DNA from: a virus
IMG/VR virus record: IMGVR_UViG_3300008266_000102
Location: 1 to 45,523 of that record
Length of the DNA stretch: 45,523 bases
Reading direction: 5' to 3' (one strand)
The notes beneath the pieces were generated by a model, which saw only the letters and a program-made list of their open reading frames with translations, was not told where the DNA came from and searched no databases. Both the position numbers and the translations under genes were made by a program. Position 1 is the stretch's first letter; each line of letters begins with the position of its first letter. Shown here one piece after another: positions 11,891 through 45,523 of this stretch.

Positions 11891-12253
11891 CTAAATTCCT
11901 TTATTACGTAATAATAATTTTTTTATTAATTCATCTTGCTCCTCTTGATCTATTTCGTCTTGGGATTTGACAAGATTATTTGCAATTTTGTTTTTATCAC
12001 TATTTTCTTTCATGAATACTGATATTTTTTGATCGGAAATAATATCCCTAAAGTCTTTGACTTTTAAAATGGGACCTTCATTCATCTCATCATATTCACT
12101 ACCATCAGTTGCAACAATTATATCGACATCAAGATTGATGTGATTTTTCAAATCAACAACAACTCTTTTTTTAATGTGATCTACTCTAGAAATGATTACT
12201 TCACCATCTTTTTTTTTCAAAAAGAAGAAATCATCAGGTTCTAATTTTGACAT
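11891..12253 (-). CDS. Hypothetical acidic protein, 120 aa
   Basis: The N-terminal two thirds look like a small beta barrel (FFFLKKKDGEVIISRVDHIK). The C-terminus is a Glu/Gln-rich helix ending KKLLLRNKGI. Unrecognised. It is the first gene after the structured RNA candidate and starts 2 nt after, or overlaps, the upstream signals of the 11136-11888 gene. Confidence 0.58.
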   Translation of the reverse strand: MSKLEPDDFFFLKKKDGEVIISRVDHIKKRVVVDLKNHINLDVDIIVATDGSEYDEMNEGPILKVKDFRDIISDQKISVFMKENSDKNKIANNLVKSQDEIDQEEQDELIKKLLLRNKGI

Positions 12254-12270
12254 ATTCTTATTTTTTATTT

Positions 12271-12506
12271 TAAATAAACCGAACTCACAGCACTAATCTT
12301 AAGTTCAGAAGGTCATCTAGATATTCCACATTAGTATATTACAATTGGTAGAAATTTTACGACATTGTAGTTTCGTGTTTTATGCTCGGACTTATACACG
12401 TTATCAACCATTAAAGAAGCAGGTCTATCGTAAACTCTTACTCAAAGGATGGACTTCTCCGGAGCCTAATCCCCAGTGGGTTTAACCATGAGCCGGTTTT
12501 GAATAC
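12271..12506 (-). ncRNA. Candidate structured RNA, ~236 nt, unknown class
   Basis: This gene-free stretch is richer in G and C than its surroundings and follows the TonB receptor stop by about 25 nt. On the minus strand AAACCG-G-CTC near the 5' end pairs with GAG-TT-CGGTTT near the 3' end. AGAAG-TC-CATC pairs with GATG-AC-CTTCT nested inside. CGTGT/ACACG forms a hairpin with a 17-nt loop, GTAA/TTAC a small hairpin and TACAAT/ATTGTA another. The nested architecture suggests a folded RNA. Some pieces recall RNase P (AGAAGTCC, GTAAGAG, TAGATGA in order), but the universal P4 bulge and ACAGAA box are missing, so the class is left open. Confidence 0.5.
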
Positions 12507-12530: not shown

Positions 12531-14978
12531 TCAAAATTTATACCTTAAGTTAACTGAAAAATCTTGACCCAACCTATAGTAGTTTGAAACAACATAACCA
12601 GAATCAGAATTTTGAATAAATTCATATTTTGCATTTAATAAATTATTGATTCTCAATGAAATAGAGTACTTATTTTTTTCAATATTATAGATTAAATTTA
12701 AAAAGTTTTGTGGTATTTGATAAATATCACCGAGTCCAAAAACACCTACTGCGTTAAGTTTTTTACCTATGAAATTATAAGTTATTCCAATGTTGTTGTT
12801 TTCATTAATTGAATAAAATAAATCAGCATTAGATAGTATTGGCGAAGATCCTTGCAATGGTCTTTTTAAATTACTTACAACAACTGTAGAATTACCTTCA
12901 TTAGAAATAATTATTTGAGACCATAAGACGGATAAATTATAGTCTATTATAAACTTATTAATTCTCTTTTTTATTTCAATTTCTCCACCAAAAACATTTG
13001 ATCTTTCACTATTTTGAAAAGTTTCCAATCTACCACTTGCGGTAGCGATATTAACTCTTTCTATTGGATTATCTATTGTTTTACTAAATAAAGCTATTGA
13101 ATAAATTTGGTTATTAGATGGATAAAACTCATAACCTAAATCAAAATTAATGACTTTAGAAACTGTAAGATTTGGATTGCCTTGAATTTTAGAACCTGCA
13201 AAAACTTCAGTATATATAAAAGGAACAGTTTCTCTAAATCTTGGTCTTATATTAGTGATTGAAGCGACAAACTTTAATTGTTTTTTGTCATTTATTCTAT
13301 ATTTTATTGATAAGAATGGAAGTAAATCTAAATTATCTATTTTATTATTTTTCAAAAATACTGGTGAAAGTTGATCTCTGTAATTTACTACTTGTTCTAC
13401 ATCTTCAACTCTTAATCCATAACTTAAATCAGTTTTATTACTGTTAAAATTAGATTTAATAAAAAAACCATTAATATTTGTGTATCCTTCTGTTTTTGAA
13501 GCTGGATTATTAACCCATAATTCTGTAGTTTGATCACTATTAAGATATTGATTTGGATTGGAAGGATCAATGTATCCATAAATTGAATTTATTTTTCCTA
13601 AATCATAATATTTTTGTTTATAATCAAATAAATTTCTAGAACTTAAATAACTGTATCCAAAATAGTGATCTAATTTTTTTCCTTTATGAGAAATTGTAAA
13701 ATTAAAATTTATCGTGTTTTCTCTGTTTGTGTTCCAGAAAATGTGATTGTCGAGTTTATCTATGTTATTAAATGAATATTGACCATCATATAGGTAAACA
13801 AACTGTTCTCTTGCACTTTCTCCACTTTCCACTAAAGAAAATCCTCCTATACCATCTATTGTCCAATTTCCTAATCTATAATTTGCATTTATTTGATCGG
13901 TAAATAAAGAATGTGAAAATGGTGTGTTTCTGGTTGTAAAAATATCTTTACTATAATCAAAATGAGTTCCAAATGTTTCTCTGTAAAGTGTGTTTTTTTG
14001 ATTTATATATAATGAGGTATTTTTTATACTAAAATTTTTTGATTCATGGTGTAAAACAAAAATACCAGAGGGAGTAAATTGGTTTATCCTGTCTTTAAAT
14101 TTATAGTCGAGAACATAATTTCCTTGTTTATTTATTAATCTTAGTATTCCATCTAAATTTTGATTATCATTTATTAAGTTTAAATTGAGATAGTAGCTTA
14201 ATTTTTTGTTTTCTTTTCCTATCTGAAAATTAAAATTGTAATTAGGGGTGGGTGTCAATGAGTTTAAAGAACCCCTTAAAGAAACACTTTTTATTGTTTT
14301 TATTTCACTAGTTAAAATATCAATTTGAGCACCACAAACATTTCCCCATTGATCTGAAGAATATGTTTTCCTAATCTTCATATTATCCATAATTCCAACA
14401 GGTAAAATATTTAAATCAATATTCTTTTTATCTGCATTGTTGGATGGAATTGGAATTCCATTAAGGGTTACTTGATTATATCTATCGTCAAGACCCCTAA
14501 TATTTAATTTAGAATTTGTAAATGATATGCCCGACACCTTTTTTAACCCATCTTCTGCATTTGAAATCCCTTTTCTGGTCATTTCTGAAGATCCTATTGA
14601 AGACTCAATGCCATTAGCATTTTTTTTATCCATTAAAAGTATAGTTTCTGAAGAATTATTCTTTTTAGCTGATATCTCAACTTCATTCATAGAAACAGAT
14701 TTCGATTTTAATATAATATTAAATTGATTGTTGTTTGCATTTATTTTCTGTTCTTCAAACCCAAGACAATAAAAAACAATCAAAGATTCATTTGATTTTA
14801 TTTTCAAATAAAAATTACCATCGAAATCTGTTTGAGTTCCGTTTTGAGTATTTTCTTCAATTATAGAAACAAAAGGTAGTGGTTGATTTGATTCATCCAC
14901 TACCTTTCCTTTTATTTCTTGACTAAATGCTTGAGTAAAACTTACAAATAAGTAAATTAATATGATTATTGCTCTCAT
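12531..14978 (-). CDS. TonB-dependent outer-membrane receptor
   Basis: The start is placed at MRAIIILIYLFVSFTQAFSQ, a good signal peptide, one base after the lipoprotein stop. The longer frame to 14996 adds six charged residues. The mature protein opens with a CarboxypepD-regulatory-like domain (about residues 21-100, with KGKVVDESNQPLPFVSI). A plug domain follows (about 120-220, with NIRGLDDRYNQVTLNGIPI), then a long beta barrel ending in a strand with terminal Phe (NLRYKF). The total of 815 residues is usual for Bacteroidetes receptors, which import large substrates with TonB/ExbBD energy. It is paired with the upstream surface lipoprotein. A complete receptor is very unusual in a phage. 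The substrate is unknown. Confidence 0.92.
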   Translation of the reverse strand: MRAIIILIYLFVSFTQAFSQEIKGKVVDESNQPLPFVSIIEENTQNGTQTDFDGNFYLKIKSNESLIVFYCLGFEEQKINANNNQFNIILKSKSVSMNEVEISAKKNNSSETILLMDKKNANGIESSIGSSEMTRKGISNAEDGLKKVSGISFTNSKLNIRGLDDRYNQVTLNGIPIPSNNADKKNIDLNILPVGIMDNMKIRKTYSSDQWGNVCGAQIDILTSEIKTIKSVSLRGSLNSLTPTPNYNFNFQIGKENKKLSYYLNLNLINDNQNLDGILRLINKQGNYVLDYKFKDRINQFTPSGIFVLHHESKNFSIKNTSLYINQKNTLYRETFGTHFDYSKDIFTTRNTPFSHSLFTDQINANYRLGNWTIDGIGGFSLVESGESAREQFVYLYDGQYSFNNIDKLDNHIFWNTNRENTINFNFTISHKGKKLDHYFGYSYLSSRNLFDYKQKYYDLGKINSIYGYIDPSNPNQYLNSDQTTELWVNNPASKTEGYTNINGFFIKSNFNSNKTDLSYGLRVEDVEQVVNYRDQLSPVFLKNNKIDNLDLLPFLSIKYRINDKKQLKFVASITNIRPRFRETVPFIYTEVFAGSKIQGNPNLTVSKVINFDLGYEFYPSNNQIYSIALFSKTIDNPIERVNIATASGRLETFQNSERSNVFGGEIEIKKRINKFIIDYNLSVLWSQIIISNEGNSTVVVSNLKRPLQGSSPILSNADLFYSINENNNIGITYNFIGKKLNAVGVFGLGDIYQIPQNFLNLIYNIEKNKYSISLRINNLLNAKYEFIQNSDSGYVVSNYYRLGQDFSVNLRYKF

Positions 14979-14979
14979 T

Positions 14980-16131
14980 CTATTTCGTCCAACCATTCAT
15001 CCAAGCATTACCTGATCCAACATTTGAATCTTGAATGAACCAAGAATCGTTTAAAGTGGCTGTTAAACCAGCAAAAGAATTACAATCTTTAAAATCAGTA
15101 CCATTTCCTGATATGATAGAATTTGCAACAAATAATTCACCAGTTGTAATGTGATTAAGGGTTGTTTGCTCGCTAACTCTTACTCCATATTTAGCAAAAC
15201 CAGTAACATTTGCATAAAATATTTTACCCTTTGTTCCTTCTCTTAGTCTAATTCCTTCATTTAATCCATCTCCATCATTAACACCATTTAATGTTATATT
15301 TGATAATGTTGGTTCTGAATAAGGAGAAGCTGTATTATCATCTCCATTATTATCCGCTTCAATACCTCTATCACCACCATCTATACCTTGTTGCACAAAC
15401 CAATATTGACCTTTTCCTCTCCATCCATGAGTCCAATCAAAAGAATCATCTTGATTCTCCGTTGAAACTGCATATCTTATATTTAATGTTCCTCCAAACA
15501 ATTCGATTCCATCATCAGAACCCCTATATGCCTGTATGTATTCAACAATTGTACTTGATCCAACCCCATTAAAAGAAAATCCATTTAATTCATTATCTGT
15601 TCCAAGTATTTTACCAGCATATTCGACTCTTATATATTTTAAAATTCCGGAATTGTCTTGATCGTTACTTCCTCCATAAACACCTGTACCCCCTTCGCCT
15701 TCTGCAGTTAGACCAGTGTTTATGTCAGCATATCCATTGACAATTATTCCTCCCCAATCACCATAGGTAGGATTGCTTTTTAATGGTGTGAAAATTATAG
15801 GATTAGTACTAGAACCTTCTGCGAAAATTTTTGCACCTTGTTTTATTGATAAAAAGGTTGTTACAGATGGATCAGCGTATATTGTTTGTCCACCATTTAT
15901 ATAAAGTGAATAACCCTCTTCAATAAATACACCACCAGAAAGAAGCCATTTTTTAGACGAATCCAAAGTAAAATTTTCATTTATGACACCCTCTATTTTT
16001 TGAAATAAATCTCCATTTATATTTACTTCTGTAACTATAAATGATTTATTTTCTGGAATTTGATTATCGTCTTTTTTGCAAGACGTAACAAGTACAGCGA
16101 ATGCTGTAATAATAAATAATAGTTTTTTCAT
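14980..16131 (-). CDS. Surface lipoprotein with right-handed beta-helix, receptor partner
   Basis: The signal peptide ends in a lipobox with Cys18, followed by KKDD, an acidic start resembling the lipoprotein export signal that sends Bacteroidetes lipoproteins to the cell surface. The remaining 360 residues show repeated Gly/Asn/Asp turns and short strands (IYADPSVTTFLSIKQGAKI, then GDWGGIIVNG, FDWTHGWRGK) of the parallel beta-helix family that commonly accompanies TonB-dependent receptors in flavobacteria. It is first in the operon; its TAG is followed by one base and the receptor ATG. It probably sits over or near the receptor and helps to capture substrate. A host origin is likely. Confidence 0.88.
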   Translation of the reverse strand: MKKLLFIITAFAVLVTSCKKDDNQIPENKSFIVTEVNINGDLFQKIEGVINENFTLDSSKKWLLSGGVFIEEGYSLYINGGQTIYADPSVTTFLSIKQGAKIFAEGSSTNPIIFTPLKSNPTYGDWGGIIVNGYADINTGLTAEGEGGTGVYGGSNDQDNSGILKYIRVEYAGKILGTDNELNGFSFNGVGSSTIVEYIQAYRGSDDGIELFGGTLNIRYAVSTENQDDSFDWTHGWRGKGQYWFVQQGIDGGDRGIEADNNGDDNTASPYSEPTLSNITLNGVNDGDGLNEGIRLREGTKGKIFYANVTGFAKYGVRVSEQTTLNHITTGELFVANSIISGNGTDFKDCNSFAGLTATLNDSWFIQDSNVGSGNAWMNGWTK

Positions 16132-16250
16132 CTTATTGTTTTTGCCAATAATTAGAAGTCAAAAAAGACAAAAACAAAAATTAACTATTTGTTACTAAAA
16201 AGTTAACAAAAACATAATAACTTAAATTTAAAGCTATTTTAAATAAAAAT

Positions 16251-16394
16251 GGGATCGGGACGGGATTCGAACCCGCATACCAACACTTGTTATGATACTG
16301 GAATTTTCATCTTCCGTTGGGGGGGAATCCCGATACAAGTATAAGGGACCCCATTGCCGACGATGAGAGCCTACCAATTCAGCCACACCGATCC
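16251..16394 (-). tRNA. 144-nt tRNA-like gene with a large internal insertion
   Basis: The ends are those of a tRNA: minus-strand GGATCGG pairs with CCGATCC, a D-arm-like GGCTGAATTGGTAGGCT follows, and a T arm GCGGG-TTCGAAT-CCCG closes the 3' side. The length is about 60 nt too great, and no ordinary anticodon arm can be placed; CTCAT/ATGGG closes an 8-nt loop. The extra part forms GGGG-TCCC-ATAC / GTAT-GGGA-CCCC and CCAAC/GTTGG helices, plus a GGAA/TTCC hairpin with a GATGAAAA loop. It could be an interrupted tRNA, a tRNA-mimic or a degenerate Leu/Ser-type gene. It lies upstream of the receptor operon. Confidence 0.5.
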
Positions 16395-22054: not shown

Positions 22055-22092
22055 CTTTTTTAATTATAAATATTTTATATAATTAAATTTTG

Positions 22093-22172
22093 AGCCGATG
22101 GAGGGACTCGAACCCCCGGTGTTTGTGTTCCAGTTTACAAAACTGGTGCTGTCGCCACTGAGCCACATCGGC
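22093..22172 (-). tRNA. tRNA-Thr(TGT)
   Basis: Acceptor GCCGATG/CATCGGC, D arm GCTC...GAC-AGC, anticodon arm CCAGT-TTTGTAA-ACTGG with TGT, and T loop TTCGAGT. The variable region is long (about a dozen bases, ACACAAACACC) without a clear stem. It is the last gene of the array in the direction of transcription. Confidence 0.9.
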
Positions 22173-22181
22173 AATAATAAG

Positions 22182-22253
22182 TTCATCCAGAGGAAGTCGA
22201 ATTCCCATCTTCTGGTTCGTAGCCAGATATTCTCTCCGTTAAACTACAGGTGA
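22182..22253 (-). tRNA. tRNA-Arg(ACG)
   Basis: Anticodon arm TCTGG-CTACGAA-CCAGA with ACG, T8-A9 and a D arm with AGTTTAACGG. The acceptor TCACCTG/TGGATGA contains one mismatch and wobbles, and the T stem has one A-C mismatch, but the overall cloverleaf is clear. Confidence 0.85.
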
Positions 22254-22260
22254 ATTTTTG

Positions 22261-22334
22261 TACCCCCAGTGGAAGTCGAATCCACAAACACCAGATCCTA
22301 AGTCTAGCCGCTTTGCCAGTTTGCGTACAGGGGC
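22261..22334 (-). tRNA. tRNA-Leu(TAG), short variable loop
   Basis: Acceptor GCCCCTG/TGGGGGT, D arm CGC...GCG, anticodon arm CTAGA-CTTAGGA-TCTGG with TAG (reads CUA), and T arm GTGGA-TTCGACT-TCCAC. The variable loop is only TGTTT, whereas bacterial leucine tRNAs normally have a long variable arm, so the amino acid identity deserves a check. Confidence 0.85.
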
Positions 22335-22343
22335 ATTTTATGG

Positions 22344-22414
22344 AGGTAGGAGATGGGATCAAACCATCGTAGAAGGTTTTGCAGACCTCCACCTAGTCAC
22401 TCGGTCATCCTACC
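22344..22414 (-). tRNA. tRNA-Cys(GCA)
   Basis: Perfect acceptor GGTAGGA/TCCTACC with discriminator T73 as expected for cysteine, anticodon loop CTGCAAA, and T arm GATGG-TTTGATC-CCATC. Length 71 nt. Confidence 0.92.
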
Positions 22415-22425
22415 TTACATTATTG

Positions 22426-22502
22426 TTGGGATGGAGGGGATCGAACCCACATGTCACCAATTACTCTTTCAACACGTTATCAGCGTGAGGAGATACAACC
22501 CA
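22426..22502 (-). tRNA. tRNA-Ile(GAT), unusual D-arm arrangement
   Basis: Acceptor TGGGTTG/CATCCCA (one mismatch) and T loop TTCGATC are present. The hairpin CACG-CTGATAA-CGTG has a canonical loop with GAT but begins about ten bases after T8-A9, leaving no room for a D arm. A D-loop-like GAGTAATTGGTGAC follows it, ahead of the T arm. At 77 nt it is organised exactly like tRNA-Ile(TAT) at 21324-21400. Confidence 0.7.
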
Positions 22503-22563
22503 ATAAAGAAATATTTTGCGTAAAGTATCAGAAATTAATACTTTCTGCAAAAAATTTATTTTG

Positions 22564-22636
22564 ATGTCCCAGCTGGAATCGAACCAACATCATCAGAGTC
22601 AAATTCTGATATAATTAACCGTTATACTATAGGACA
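22564..22636 (-). tRNA. tRNA-Gln(TTG)
   Basis: Acceptor TGTCCTA/TGGGACA with one wobble, D arm AGTATAACGGTTAATT, anticodon arm TCAGA-ATTTGAC-TCTGA with TTG, T loop TTCGATT. The discriminator appears to be T rather than the G usual for glutamine. Confidence 0.88.
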
Positions 22637-22650
22637 ATATAATATTAGAG

Positions 22651-22720
22651 TGGGATAGGAAGTAATCGAAACTTCGCACCTATGATTTACAGTCATTGTG
22701 AACTCCCCGGTCTCTATCCC
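22651..22720 (-). tRNA. tRNA-Tyr(GTA), short variable loop
   Basis: Perfect acceptor GGGATAG/CTATCCC with A73, anticodon arm ATGA-CTGTAAA-TCAT with GTA, and T arm GAAGT-TTCGATT-ACTTC. The variable region is short, whereas bacterial tyrosine tRNAs are normally class II, and position 8 is A instead of T. The D arm GACCGGGGAGTTC is atypical. Length 70 nt. Confidence 0.82.
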
Positions 22721-22729
22721 AGATATTTG

Positions 22730-22804
22730 TACTCCCGACGGGACTCGAACCCGCAATGACCACCTTGAAAGGGTGGTGACTTAAACCAATTTGTCCACAG
22801 GAGC
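22730..22804 (-). tRNA. tRNA-Glu(TTC)
   Basis: Acceptor GCTCCTG/CGGGAGT with A73, anticodon arm CCACC-CTTTCAA-GGTGG with TTC, T arm GCGGG-TTCGAGT-CCCGT. Length 75 nt. Confidence 0.9.
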
Positions 22805-22810
22805 ATTAAG

Positions 22811-22891
22811 AGCGAGTAGAGAGAATCGAACTCTCATCTCTGGTTTGGAAGACCAGCATAATTTACTTTCGTTCCACTATACGATACTCGC
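22811..22891 (-). tRNA. tRNA-Gly(TCC)
   Basis: Perfect acceptor GCGAGTA/TACTCGC with T73, anticodon arm CTGGT-CTTCCAA-ACCAG with TCC, and T arm GAGAG-TTCGATT-CTCTC. The D region is long for a tRNA (ACGAAAGTAAATTATG), giving 81 nt in all. Confidence 0.9.
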
Positions 22892-22943
22892 AATTGTGCC
22901 AACATGTCAAAGAACAACAACAGATACTCATGTTGTTTTATTG

Positions 22944-23018
22944 TTGCGGGAATGGGAATCGAACCCATGTGATTCAGCTTATGAGACTGAGCTGGAACCA
23001 TCTCCAGTCCATCCCGCA
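22944..23018 (-). tRNA. tRNA-Met(CAT) or lysidine-type tRNA-Ile2
   Basis: Perfect acceptor TGCGGGA/TCCCGCA with A73, D arm with CTGG/CCAG, anticodon arm TCAGT-CTCATAA-GCTGA with CAT, T arm ATGGG-TTCGATT-CCCAT. The three GC pairs of initiator tRNA are absent, so elongator Met or an Ile2 type is likely. Confidence 0.9.
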
Positions 23019-23027
23019 ATTTTTAGG

Positions 23028-23100
23028 AGGAGCTACCGAGCTTTGAACTCGGGACTTAACATTGCAAATGTTATGTGTTCGCCATCTATACCATAGCCCC
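23028..23100 (-). tRNA. tRNA-Ala(TGC)
   Basis: Acceptor GGGGCTA/TAGCTCC with one G-T wobble, anticodon arm TAACA-TTTGCAA-TGTTA with TGC, T arm CCGAG-TTCAAAG-CTCGG. The G3-U70 alanine identity pair is present (G3 opposite T). Length 73 nt. Confidence 0.9.
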
Positions 23101-23104
23101 ATTG

Positions 23105-23180
23105 TCTGGTAAGCCGGACTCGAACCGACATCAGCTCCTACTTCCAAGGTAGGCGAGGCAACCAATTCCTCCATTACCAG
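23105..23180 (-). tRNA. tRNA-Pro(TGG)
   Basis: Perfect acceptor CTGGTAA/TTACCAG with A73, anticodon arm CCTAC-CTTGGAA-GTAGG with TGG, T loop TTCGAGT. Length 76 nt. Confidence 0.92.
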
Positions 23181-23185
23181 TTTAG

Positions 23186-23258
23186 CGGTCTATGAGAGAA
23201 TCGAACTCTCACCACCCGATAGACAGTCGGGTATCCTTAGCCGTTGGACCAATAGACC
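23186..23258 (-). tRNA. tRNA-Asp(GTC)
   Basis: Perfect acceptor GGTCTAT/ATAGACC with G73 as expected, anticodon arm CCCGA-CTGTCTA-TCGGG with GTC, T arm GAGAG-TTCGATT-CTCTC. Length 73 nt. Confidence 0.93.
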
Positions 23259-23270
23259 TTTTTTACTTTG

Positions 23271-23345
23271 TGTACCCGGAGAGATTCGAACTCTCGACTC
23301 CTGCATTAAAAGTGCAGTACTCTAATCCAGCTGAGTTACGGATAC
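23271..23345 (-). tRNA. tRNA-Lys(TTT)
   Basis: Acceptor GTATCCG/CGGGTAC with one wobble and A73, T8-A9, D arm ACTCAGCTGGATTAGAGT, anticodon arm CTGCA-CTTTTAA-TGCAG with TTT, T arm GAGAG-TTCGAAT-CTCTC. Length 75 nt. Confidence 0.93.
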
Positions 23346-23485
23346 ATTTTGAATGCACCCGTAGGCACATTCAGTTATTTACGTTTTCGTTTTAATTTAT
23401 TTTTTGTTTTCATTTCATTTCCAGTTTTCTGGGGACTGAGCCCAGCAGGTATTTGACTCAGCCCCCAACATCATCATTTTTTTTG
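23346..23485 (-). other. Structured spacer in tRNA array
   Basis: This 140-nt gap between tRNA-Lys and tRNA-Asn, far longer than the other spacers, contains no tRNA. On the minus strand it shows GGGG-G-CTGAG paired with CTCAG-T-CCCC, a small CCAG-TTTT-CTGG hairpin, and GAATGTGCC-TACG-GGTGCATTC, a 9-bp stem with a UNCG-type tetraloop at 23351-23372. Between them a 12-codon frame (MKTKNKLKRKRK, ATG to TAA) could be read. It may be processing structure, a relic tRNA or a small RNA. Confidence 0.4.
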
Positions 23486-23558
23486 CGGGGAATGTGGGCA
23501 ACGATCCCACACCCTTCTGCTTAACAGGCAGTTGCTCTTCCACTTGAGCTTCTTCCCC
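23486..23558 (-). tRNA. tRNA-Asn(GTT)
   Basis: Acceptor GGGGAAG/ATTCCCC (last pair mismatched) with G73, D arm GCTC...GAGC, anticodon arm CTGC-CTGTTAA-GCAG with GTT, T stem GTGGG/CCCAC. The T loop ATCGTTG departs from the usual TTCRANY. Confidence 0.87.
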
Positions 23559-23564
23559 CCTTTG

Positions 23565-23637
23565 TGGAACCGGAGGCTTTCGAGTCCTCGACCTTTGGAT
23601 TTTCAGTCCAACGCTCTTCCATCTGAGCTACGGTTCC
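23565..23637 (-). tRNA. tRNA-Phe(GAA)
   Basis: Perfect acceptor GGAACCG/CGGTTCC with A73, D arm GCTC...GAGC, anticodon arm TTGGA-CTGAAAA-TCCAA with GAA. The T loop CTCGAAA departs slightly from consensus. It is the first gene of the array, directly after the leader terminator. Confidence 0.9.
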
Positions 23638-44236: not shown

Positions 44237-45523
44237 TTATTTACTTAATATTTTTAAAACTTTTAATATTGAATCTGGTGTCACAGAAATACTATCTATA
44301 CCCTCTTCAACCAGAAACTTTGCAAATTCAGGAAAATCAGATGGTGCTTGACCGCAAATTCCAACTTTAGTGCCGGTTTTTTTACCAACTTTTATAAGAT
44401 GAGATATAGCTCTTTTTACTGCAATATTCCTTTCATCATAAATGTGAGCGACTAATGCAGAATCCCTATCCAACCCTAAAATTAATTGAGTTAAATCATT
44501 AGACCCTATTGAAAAACCATCTATATGTTCGGCAAATTCCTCAGCCATAAATATATTAGATGGAAGTTCAGCCATTAAATAAATCTCTAGACCCCTTTCA
44601 CCTCTTTTAAGCCCATACGATTCCATTACCTTATAAACTTTTAGTAATTCCTCTACTGTTCTACAAAATGGGATCATAATTACAACATTGGTTAAACCCA
44701 TTTTTTCCCTTACTCTTTTTAGGGCTTTTAATTCCATACCAAATGCCTCTTTGTATTCAGTGGAATAGTATCTTGAAGCACCTCTCCAACCTATCATAGG
44801 GTTTTCTTCTTTCGGCTCAAAATAAGTACCTCCTAATAAGTTTTCATATTCATTGGATTTAAAATCTGATAATCTTACAATTACTTTATTCGGATAAAAT
44901 GCTGTAGCAATTTTTGCTATACCATAAGATAATCTTTTAACAAAAAAAGTTTCTTCATCATCATACCCCCTTATTGTTTTTTCAATTTCATTTGTAAGAT
45001 TTTCATCACCAATTTGCTTATGTTTTAGAAGAGCAAGTGGATGTACCTTTATATAATTATTAATTATAAATTCTTCTCTGGCAAGTCCTACACCTGAATT
45101 TGGTAGATGTGAAAATTTAAAAGCTATATCCGGAGATGCAACATTTAGCATTATGGGTGTCTTAACCTTGGGCAGATCATCAAGGTTTGTTTCTATTTTT
45201 TCATAATCTAAAAACCCTTCGTAAACAAATCCAGTATCACCCTCACTACATGATACAGTGACCTTTTGATTATTTTTAATTATATCTGTGGCATTTCTAC
45301 ACCCTACTATTGCAGGCAAACCTAACTCTCTTGCAACTATTGCAGCGTGACAAGTTCTACCACCTTTATTGGTAATGATTGCAGAAGCTTTTTTCATGAT
45401 TGGCTCCCAATCAGGATCTGTCATATCTGTTACTAACACTGAACCATCAACAAATTCAGAAGCATCAAAAGAACCATCCCTTCCATCTAAAGAGAACATA
45501 ATTGTTGCTTCTCCAGATGCAAC
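44237..45523 (-). CDS. ppsA: Phosphoenolpyruvate synthase, C-terminal half (N-terminus beyond the window)
   Basis: The frame is open through the right edge, so the 429 visible residues are the C-terminal part of a longer protein. GSVLVTDMTDPDWEPIMKKA and GGRTCHAAIVAREL form the phosphohistidine domain, with the phosphoryl-carrying His in TCHAA. The PEP-binding barrel follows with MIPFCRTVEELLKV, SIGSNDLTQLILGLDRDS and GICGQAPSD, which carries the catalytic Cys. PpsA converts pyruvate, ATP and water to PEP, AMP and phosphate. The TDPDWEP motif favours PpsA over pyruvate phosphate dikinase. All catalytic residues in this half are intact. PpsA is very unusual in a phage. Confidence 0.9.
   Translation of the reverse strand, partial: VASGEATIMFSLDGRDGSFDASEFVDGSVLVTDMTDPDWEPIMKKASAIITNKGGRTCHAAIVARELGLPAIVGCRNATDIIKNNQKVTVSCSEGDTGFVYEGFLDYEKIETNLDDLPKVKTPIMLNVASPDIAFKFSHLPNSGVGLAREEFIINNYIKVHPLALLKHKQIGDENLTNEIEKTIRGYDDEETFFVKRLSYGIAKIATAFYPNKVIVRLSDFKSNEYENLLGGTYFEPKEENPMIGWRGASRYYSTEYKEAFGMELKALKRVREKMGLTNVVIMIPFCRTVEELLKVYKVMESYGLKRGERGLEIYLMAELPSNIFMAEEFAEHIDGFSIGSNDLTQLILGLDRDSALVAHIYDERNIAVKRAISHLIKVGKKTGTKVGICGQAPSDFPEFAKFLVEEGIDSISVTPDSILKVLKILSK

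Follow-up and report, generated by a model that had tools for sequence, protein, structure and literature searches.

In Flavobacterium johnsoniae, the systems PUSIV/PUSIII consist of Fjoh_0545 with the lipoprotein FII (Fjoh_0546), in the phoBR cluster, and Fjoh_3857 with FI (Fjoh_3856); in both, a receptor with a plug and a CarbopepD_reg_2 domain adjoins a lipoprotein of pectin-lyase-like type without a Pfam family. According to the sections of that study used here, depletion of inorganic phosphate (Pi) induces Fjoh_0545 and Fjoh_0546, uncharacterised low-Pi loci including Fjoh_0546 are repressed under nitrogen and iron limitation, and FI, related to Fjoh_0546, makes up 18.7% of the exoproteome, more than any other exoprotein (PMC8115612). 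In the same study FI-FIII are reported to be 31-36% identical to the Caulobacter protein ElpS, to which its authors see a relation (PMC8115612). The FI/FII/ElpS family, abundant and phosphate-induced, is described as having no known function. ElpS itself is a surface lipoprotein of the phosphate-starvation response, and a TonB receptor co-occurs with it (PMC2996285). Here we describe a comparable gene pair on a phage. The window, by which we mean the whole stretch analysed, is IMG/VR record IMGVR_UViG_3300008266_000102, positions 1-45,523, and all window coordinates follow that numbering. It encodes a TonB-dependent receptor (12531..14996, minus strand) and a surface-type lipoprotein with a right-handed beta-helix (14980..16131, minus strand). 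Because bacterial homologues often lie in Pho-type clusters and Pho-box-like repeats stand at the phage promoter, we consider it fairly probable that the pair is a phosphorus-acquisition cassette, taken by large phages (probably of Bacteroidota) from the Pho regulon of their hosts and placed under host PhoB.

Both open reading frames (ORFs) are intact. The receptor, 821 residues long when counted from the first ATG (14996), ends in Phe and matches Pfam families CarbopepD_reg_2 (residues 28-106, 7e-18) and Plug (residues 124-218, 2e-9), in agreement with the first-pass annotation of a full-length receptor with a carboxypeptidase-regulatory-like domain, a plug and a terminal Phe. Met7 (14978) is probably the true start: 27 of the 29 receptors aligned have Met at this position, and a single base then parts the receptor start from the lipoprotein stop (TAG, 14982-14980); translation from the first ATG would make the genes overlap by 17 bases. 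With this likely start, the one-base spacing and the intact, compact packing described in that annotation hold. The AlphaFold model of the receptor is a plugged barrel with a mean predicted local distance difference test score (pLDDT) of 86.6 and approximately 22 strands, counted by eye. By fold comparison, most of the solved structures nearest to it are receptors for siderophores, haem or vitamins.

The lipoprotein has 383 residues and a signal-peptide-like start followed by Cys18-Lys-Lys-Asp-Asp. Pfam gives no match for it, and PHROGs none for either protein. Its AlphaFold model (mean pLDDT 92.6) agrees with the beta-helix assigned to it earlier. The nearest folds are the alginate epimerases AlgG/AlgE (Z 23.5 over 262 residues at 3.1 A), with lyases and phage tailspikes also among the neighbours, while Foldseek gave a template-modelling score of at most 0.38. 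Neither VIA-align nor Foldseek, applied to the receptor and lipoprotein models, listed a chain pointing to phosphorus, and on these models the fold matches of the two proteins tell nothing of the ligand. The CKKDD start at Cys18 had been taken to suggest surface export. That start is present in the window but differs in other phage relatives, which begin CDKEI, CTPEI, CKKPE, CEKIN, CKKPD or CHKEK, and surface export is for this reason graded only as plausible.

The first-pass annotation had treated the pair as phage-borne rather than as a product of chimeric assembly or a piece of host chromosome. The window is collinear from end to end with a separate 216.7-kb IMG/VR contig, G002 (45,523 bases at 99.97%, 13 mismatches, no gap), and a 22,463-base stretch of it recurs unchanged in a third IMG/VR contig, of 108.7 kb; going by their names, G002 and the third contig come from different metagenomes. 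Across the 3,601-base region of the pair, window and G002 show zero mismatches, and an identical receptor occurs in two other IMG/VR contigs. G002 encodes a terminase large subunit, a T4-like portal, a baseplate wedge and PhoH. We therefore reject misassembly, given the agreement among the three contigs, and host chromosome, given the phage structural genes on G002. The receptor has 26% G+C and the lipoprotein 33%, compared with 28.6% for G002 as a whole, values that give no clear sign of recent import. Searches with one window ORF (602 residues, tblastn) and with an 8-kb piece (blastn) gave no phage matches or short ones. The host is probably a member of the Bacteroidota, judging from the cellular relatives of the pair and from the huge-phage study PMC7162821, which predicts Bacteroidetes hosts for its genomes above 634 kb.

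Compared with PUSIV/PUSIII, the window pair has the same Pfam picture, as do its cellular relatives: a CarbopepD_reg_2 and plug receptor with a Pfam-less lipoprotein. It differs in lying on a phage with no phoBR beside it, and in that within the window's phage group the lipoprotein gene precedes the receptor gene and the proteins are mostly shorter than cellular ones; cellular loci holding both genes have the receptor first. Like ElpS with Cc0171, compared here by description, it joins a surface lipoprotein to a TonB receptor, whereas the Caulobacter genes are chromosomal, the receptor is constitutive and release depends on the type II secretion system, according to the portion of PMC2996285 used. 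The window pair is likened to Fjoh_0546, Fjoh_3856 and ElpS by description and by way of cellular intermediates (loci L058 and L105), so that the lipoprotein is apparent kin of the Pho-regulon FI/FII/ElpS type through its homologues' neighbourhoods and published descriptions rather than through the FI, FII or ElpS sequences. The arrangement of a TonB receptor and a surface lipoprotein as a gene pair is shared with SusCD/PusCD. Unlike the lipoproteins of SusCD, RagAB and PusCD, however, that of the window is a beta-helix without a Pfam match and thus has no SusD-like domain, and the receptor scores 75.1 bits against TIGR04056 (SusC/RagA), below the cut-off of 368.25; a SusCD system is ruled out on these two grounds. 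Cyanophage pstS and other phage phosphorus genes, some of them under host PhoBR (PMC10976474, PMC10987575), are likewise phage-borne; the part in phosphorus acquisition and the host Pho box are, in our case, predictions. The window differs from pstS in encoding an outer-membrane TonB receptor and a lipoprotein partner, with no PstS (PF12849) in eight phage records. PstS serves an ATP-binding cassette (ABC) system of the inner membrane as its binding protein.

The closest cellular relatives are Bacteroidota (32 loci), and a family member (E<=1e-30) occurs in 289 of 395 genomes of Bacteroidia, the class of a Crocinitomix genome. Among the closest relatives, L033 (60%) and L058 (54% for the lipoprotein), for example, adjoin PhoB-like regulators. 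A divergent OmpR-type regulator adjoins the receptor in seven of eight cellular loci chosen for gene listing, and such regulators occur in 15 of 41 compared loci, phage loci being counted within the 41. The top NCBIfam match was PhoB (TIGR02154) for all four regulators tested, and two tested kinases matched PhoR or PnpS best, below cut-off. Members of the Na/Pi symporter family lie near in seven loci, and the single one tested exceeds its cut-off; PhoU, PHO4 and Porin_O_P neighbours are above their Pfam cut-offs. Of 20 wider regions taken, 17 had a lipoprotein located by BLAST, and ten of these 17 contain Pho-type neighbours, among them PhoB/PhoR-like regulators, OprP-type porins and phosphate permeases (regulator plus kinase, Porin_O_P, PHO4 or Na/Pi). 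In L105, whose lipoprotein and receptor are 36% and 27% identical to those of the window, the gene order is Glyco_tran_28_C, Porin_O_P, kinase, regulator, receptor, lipoprotein. This matches the locus-tag order and Pfams of Fjoh_0541-0546, the F. johnsoniae phoBR cluster, as given in the relevant section of PMC8115612, the PhoB Pfams being outside the comparison. The earlier assignment of the pair to host-type nutrient uptake genes on a phage is thereby supported, in both its phage context and its cellular homologues.

Seeded with upstream pieces from cells only, and run on 23 cellular receptor upstreams, a motif search found a direct repeat of ATGTTAA every 11 bp. The motif is Pho-box-like; cyanobacterial Pho boxes are described with the similar consensus PyTTAAPyPyT/A. 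In a tied-repeat model with periods from 8 to 15, period 11 stands out, with a log-likelihood of 99.7 versus at most 45.8 for two units and 119.1 versus at most 43.1 for three. When this model, fitted on cells, was applied to eight phage upstreams, the combined Fisher p was 4.7e-7 (two units) and 3.5e-7 (three units), while the control region upstream of the second gene in the phages gave 0.40 and 1.00. Sixteen cellular upstreams outside the fit gave 6e-11 and 8e-9. The array in the window comprises three 11-bp units, TTGTTAACTTT TTAGTAACAAA TAGTTAATTTT, at 16177..16209 on the minus strand, 46-78 bases before the lipoprotein start, and is predicted to be a PhoB-type site for host control. Its three-unit score ranks eighth among 433,342 positions in G002, where it is the sole intergenic site in the top 11, and first among 277 ORF upstreams. 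The cellular lipoproteins, for which no box of their own had been expected, have upstream boxes at p<0.05 in 13 of 20 cases (two units) or 9 of 20 (three units). The idea that the box moved along with the changed gene order is therefore unsupported, and the phage box may have come with the lipoprotein gene.

The pair is present in several otherwise dissimilar viral contigs. In our first scans, homologous pairs turned up on seven IMG/VR contigs and on LR745206.1, a huge-phage record of 634,780 bases whose lipoprotein and receptor are 54.5% and 34.8% identical to those of the window; a plug protein is present in all eight records. Two of the seven contigs are identical to the window, and two others, L005 and L007, resemble each other in ORF layout. 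A later scan added two contigs at 73% identity. In the stretches compared, which spanned 12-77 kb per record and, for LR745206, only 41 of 635 kb, related contigs share between two and six ORFs, the pair included, with the 278 ORFs of G002. PhoH occurs in both G002 and LR745206. Viral marker genes include terminase, portal and clamp loader in G006, and tail fibre, endolysin and thymidylate synthase in G005; L006 showed only ribonucleotide reductase and QueC, and single ORFs tested from L064 and L096 had no marker match or a weak one. One phage-type pair, L032, comes from QCKH01000014.1, a contig of the single-cell genome 'Prochlorococcus sp. AG-409-L21', where a transfer-messenger RNA (tmRNA) gene lies directly upstream; its source is perhaps a phage of Bacteroidota sorted along with the cyanobacterial cell. 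In another viral contig, L009, a tmRNA gene (12081-12471) lies approximately 1 kb after the lipoprotein.

When 36 aligned lipoproteins served as query in a wider scan, 166 viral-contig stretches with a relative were found, and the counts that follow are from the best 80 of these. A receptor ORF or part of one is present in 68. Of the twelve without, ten have the lipoprotein within 250 bases of a contig end, and two, L176 and L178, have no receptor in the stretch examined. Seventy-two of the 80 belong to a second type, 33-41% identical to the window lipoprotein, mostly with the receptor first and a 4-base overlap; clustering at 85% identity leaves 18 of them. Of the 80, 50 records (48 second type and 2 first type) were tested for a T4-like portal, which 15 have; many of the records are short fragments, and the viral status of records without a portal rests on their listing in IMG/VR. 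Two human faecal 'phage' records, MT837092 (7.7 kb) and MT838075 (5.7 kb), contain both genes but no annotation; they may be bacterial and were excluded from the phage counts. The first-pass annotation had placed such pairs outside known phage gene sets. With 166 relatives in viral contigs this is too narrow, although the open-access literature searched gave no account of a phage that carries a TonB receptor together with a surface lipoprotein.

A careful lipoprotein tree (59 rows) places seven phage lipoproteins, L032 counted among them, in one clade among Bacteroidota (ultrafast bootstrap 95; Shimodaira-Hasegawa-like approximate likelihood ratio test, SH-aLRT, 90), and a quick receptor tree (51 rows) recovers the same phage clade with somewhat less support (SH-aLRT 89). 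An eighth phage lipoprotein, L009, falls outside the clade of seven. In a midpoint-rooted FastTree with 18 added viral rows, the seven do not form one clade, and four label changes are needed for 26 phage rows of 77. Because L009 sits apart and the FastTree needed these changes, the trees suggest a few entries of the pair into phages. Between the window and three relatives, 47-58% of codons differ at the third position, 21-38% at the first and 13-29% at the second. Differences at third positions are thus 1.4-3.8 times as frequent as those at either of the other two, as expected under purifying selection that keeps the proteins.

If the pair serves phosphorus uptake, infection of a phosphate-starved cell would bring host phospho-PhoB to the 11-bp repeats upstream of the lipoprotein, and both genes would be transcribed together. 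The lipoprotein would reach the outer membrane, probably facing outward, and capture a phosphorus-containing ligand, more probably an organic or polymeric phosphorus compound than inorganic phosphate. Powered by TonB, the receptor would then pass the ligand into the periplasm for further handling by host enzymes and permeases, and the phage would gain phosphorus with which to build the nucleotides of its genome of over 200 kb. The suggestion, made earlier by comparison with cyanophages, that the phage feeds the infected cell with a scarce nutrient is supported and can be narrowed to phosphorus. For the broader proposition, that a complete phosphorus-capture system of the outer membrane, read out by host PhoB, is carried by large phages of Bacteroidota and was acquired more than once or exchanged, the balance tips only slightly in favour.

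Several observations weigh against this interpretation. All four tested regulators fall below the NCBIfam PhoB equivalog cut-off, Pho-type neighbours are lacking in seven of the 17 wider regions, and PstS is absent from all eight phage records, most of them fragments. The lipoprotein fold is nearest to polysaccharide-acting enzymes, which is uninformative on phosphorus. The box is itself a prediction. The phage upstreams had been looked at before the model was fitted, and those of related phages are not fully independent in the combined p. With a 22-bp model the window had done poorly, 34 of 283 ORF upstreams reaching its score (shuffle p 0.17), and the three-unit model was a post hoc choice, built after that result; in the two-unit model, p for the window by itself is 0.066. 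The two-unit model also gives weak values for L032 (0.37) and L009 (0.14), as does the three-unit model for L005 (0.15). A strong box is missing in six of seven Na/Pi symporter upstreams of cellular loci, which we tried as an independent check. Among 43 distinct upstreams of second-type receptors, 12 reach p<0.05 with two units at period 11 and 10 at period 14; with three units the counts are 9 and 3, a modest enrichment.

Two other accounts of the pair seem to us unlikely, and about equally so. The pair could remodel the cell surface, replacing, covering or titrating a host receptor against other phages or bacteriocins (superinfection exclusion), with transport incidental. TonB receptors are common phage receptors, and an OmpA-like outer-membrane protein with a beta-barrel domain is encoded on the same contig just left of the window (G002:130048-131193, minus strand), so the phage may alter the outer membrane in other ways. 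We obtained no positive evidence for the related suggestion in the first-pass annotation, that the pair replaces or masks a receptor used by competing phages. Over seven phage receptors, moreover, conservation is highest in the plug (0.49) and in those parts of the barrel that are not strands, with inner and outer loops pooled (0.49), compared with 0.34 in the strands. This counts against a decoy, because a decoy need not keep its plug and an arms race should diversify the outer loops; it fits kept ligand handling more than a mere decoy, short of proof. A nutrient-type control motif, as predicted at the promoter, also argues against surface remodelling. The other account accepts uptake but of a different scarce ligand, such as a metal, siderophore, vitamin or polysaccharide, the Pho-type neighbourhoods of the cellular relatives then not being indicative of the phage pair's substrate. 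The fold neighbours of both proteins lean this way, and the family is large, with Pho-type neighbours lacking in the minority of wider regions already mentioned. Moreover, LR745206.1 encodes a second TonB-dependent receptor directly followed by a PnuC-type transporter for nicotinamide mononucleotide (NMN; PF04973, 7e-48) and a NadR-like protein (approximately 135,188-138,704; L030:8189-11705, minus strand), an apparent uptake operon for this precursor of nicotinamide adenine dinucleotide; phages may therefore carry receptors for other ligands. A receptor 84% identical to this second one occurs in two IMG/VR contigs. Against a different ligand stand the PhoB-like regulators beside the closest cellular relatives, L033 and L058, and the same 11-bp repeats at the phage promoters.

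We regard as very improbable a further possibility, that the lipoprotein is an enzyme acting on a surface polymer, for example capsule or extracellular nucleic acid, which aids release or spread of progeny while the receptor imports the products. The resemblance of the beta-helix to AlgG/AlgE epimerases and phage tailspikes points in this direction, as does the reported finding that ElpS overexpression raised phosphatase activity, though purified ElpS had none. The beta-helix fold is, however, common to many proteins of other function.

Other features of the window and of G002 are as follows. Just upstream of the lipoprotein gene, at 16250-16394 (minus strand), lies a tRNA-like element of approximately 145 bases whose acceptor ends and T arm match by eye; ARAGORN does not list it, and Rfam gives only a sub-threshold tRNA-Sec match. 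Thirteen clustered tRNA genes (ARAGORN) occupy 22092-23637, with one more tRNA at 23565-23637 (Rfam). The window also encodes an adenylosuccinate synthetase (923-1921; PHROG '2-aminooxy adenylosuccinate synthetase') and the C-terminal part of a phosphoenolpyruvate-utilising enzyme (44237-45523), which in G002 is an ORF of 799 residues. In G002, intein domains were matched in both the portal and the terminase large subunit (71119-77063).

TonB-driven receptors are believed to carry many phosphorus compounds across the outer membrane of Bacteroidota, and a phage supplying that step would therefore change the uptake range of the infected cell. Phosphorus genes known from phages include pstSCAB, pit, phoD, ppa, phoBR and others, that is, ABC transporter parts, permeases, enzymes and regulators (PMC10987575). 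The word 'TonB' is absent from the main texts of PMC10987575, PMC7162821 and PMC12619734, and its single mention in PMC10013915 concerns the bacterium. Control of phage genes by host PhoB is known for cyanophages (PMC10976474, PMC10987575), and for the phages considered here the corresponding prediction is that host PhoB drives phage transcription. The compact phage cassette would offer a natural minimal version of the FI/FII/ElpS-type pair for finding its substrate. If our interpretation is correct, the pair would be an outer-membrane counterpart of cyanophage pstS, and a phage-borne, TonB-dependent uptake system, recurrent in viromes, would tie the infection programme to the phosphate status of the host.

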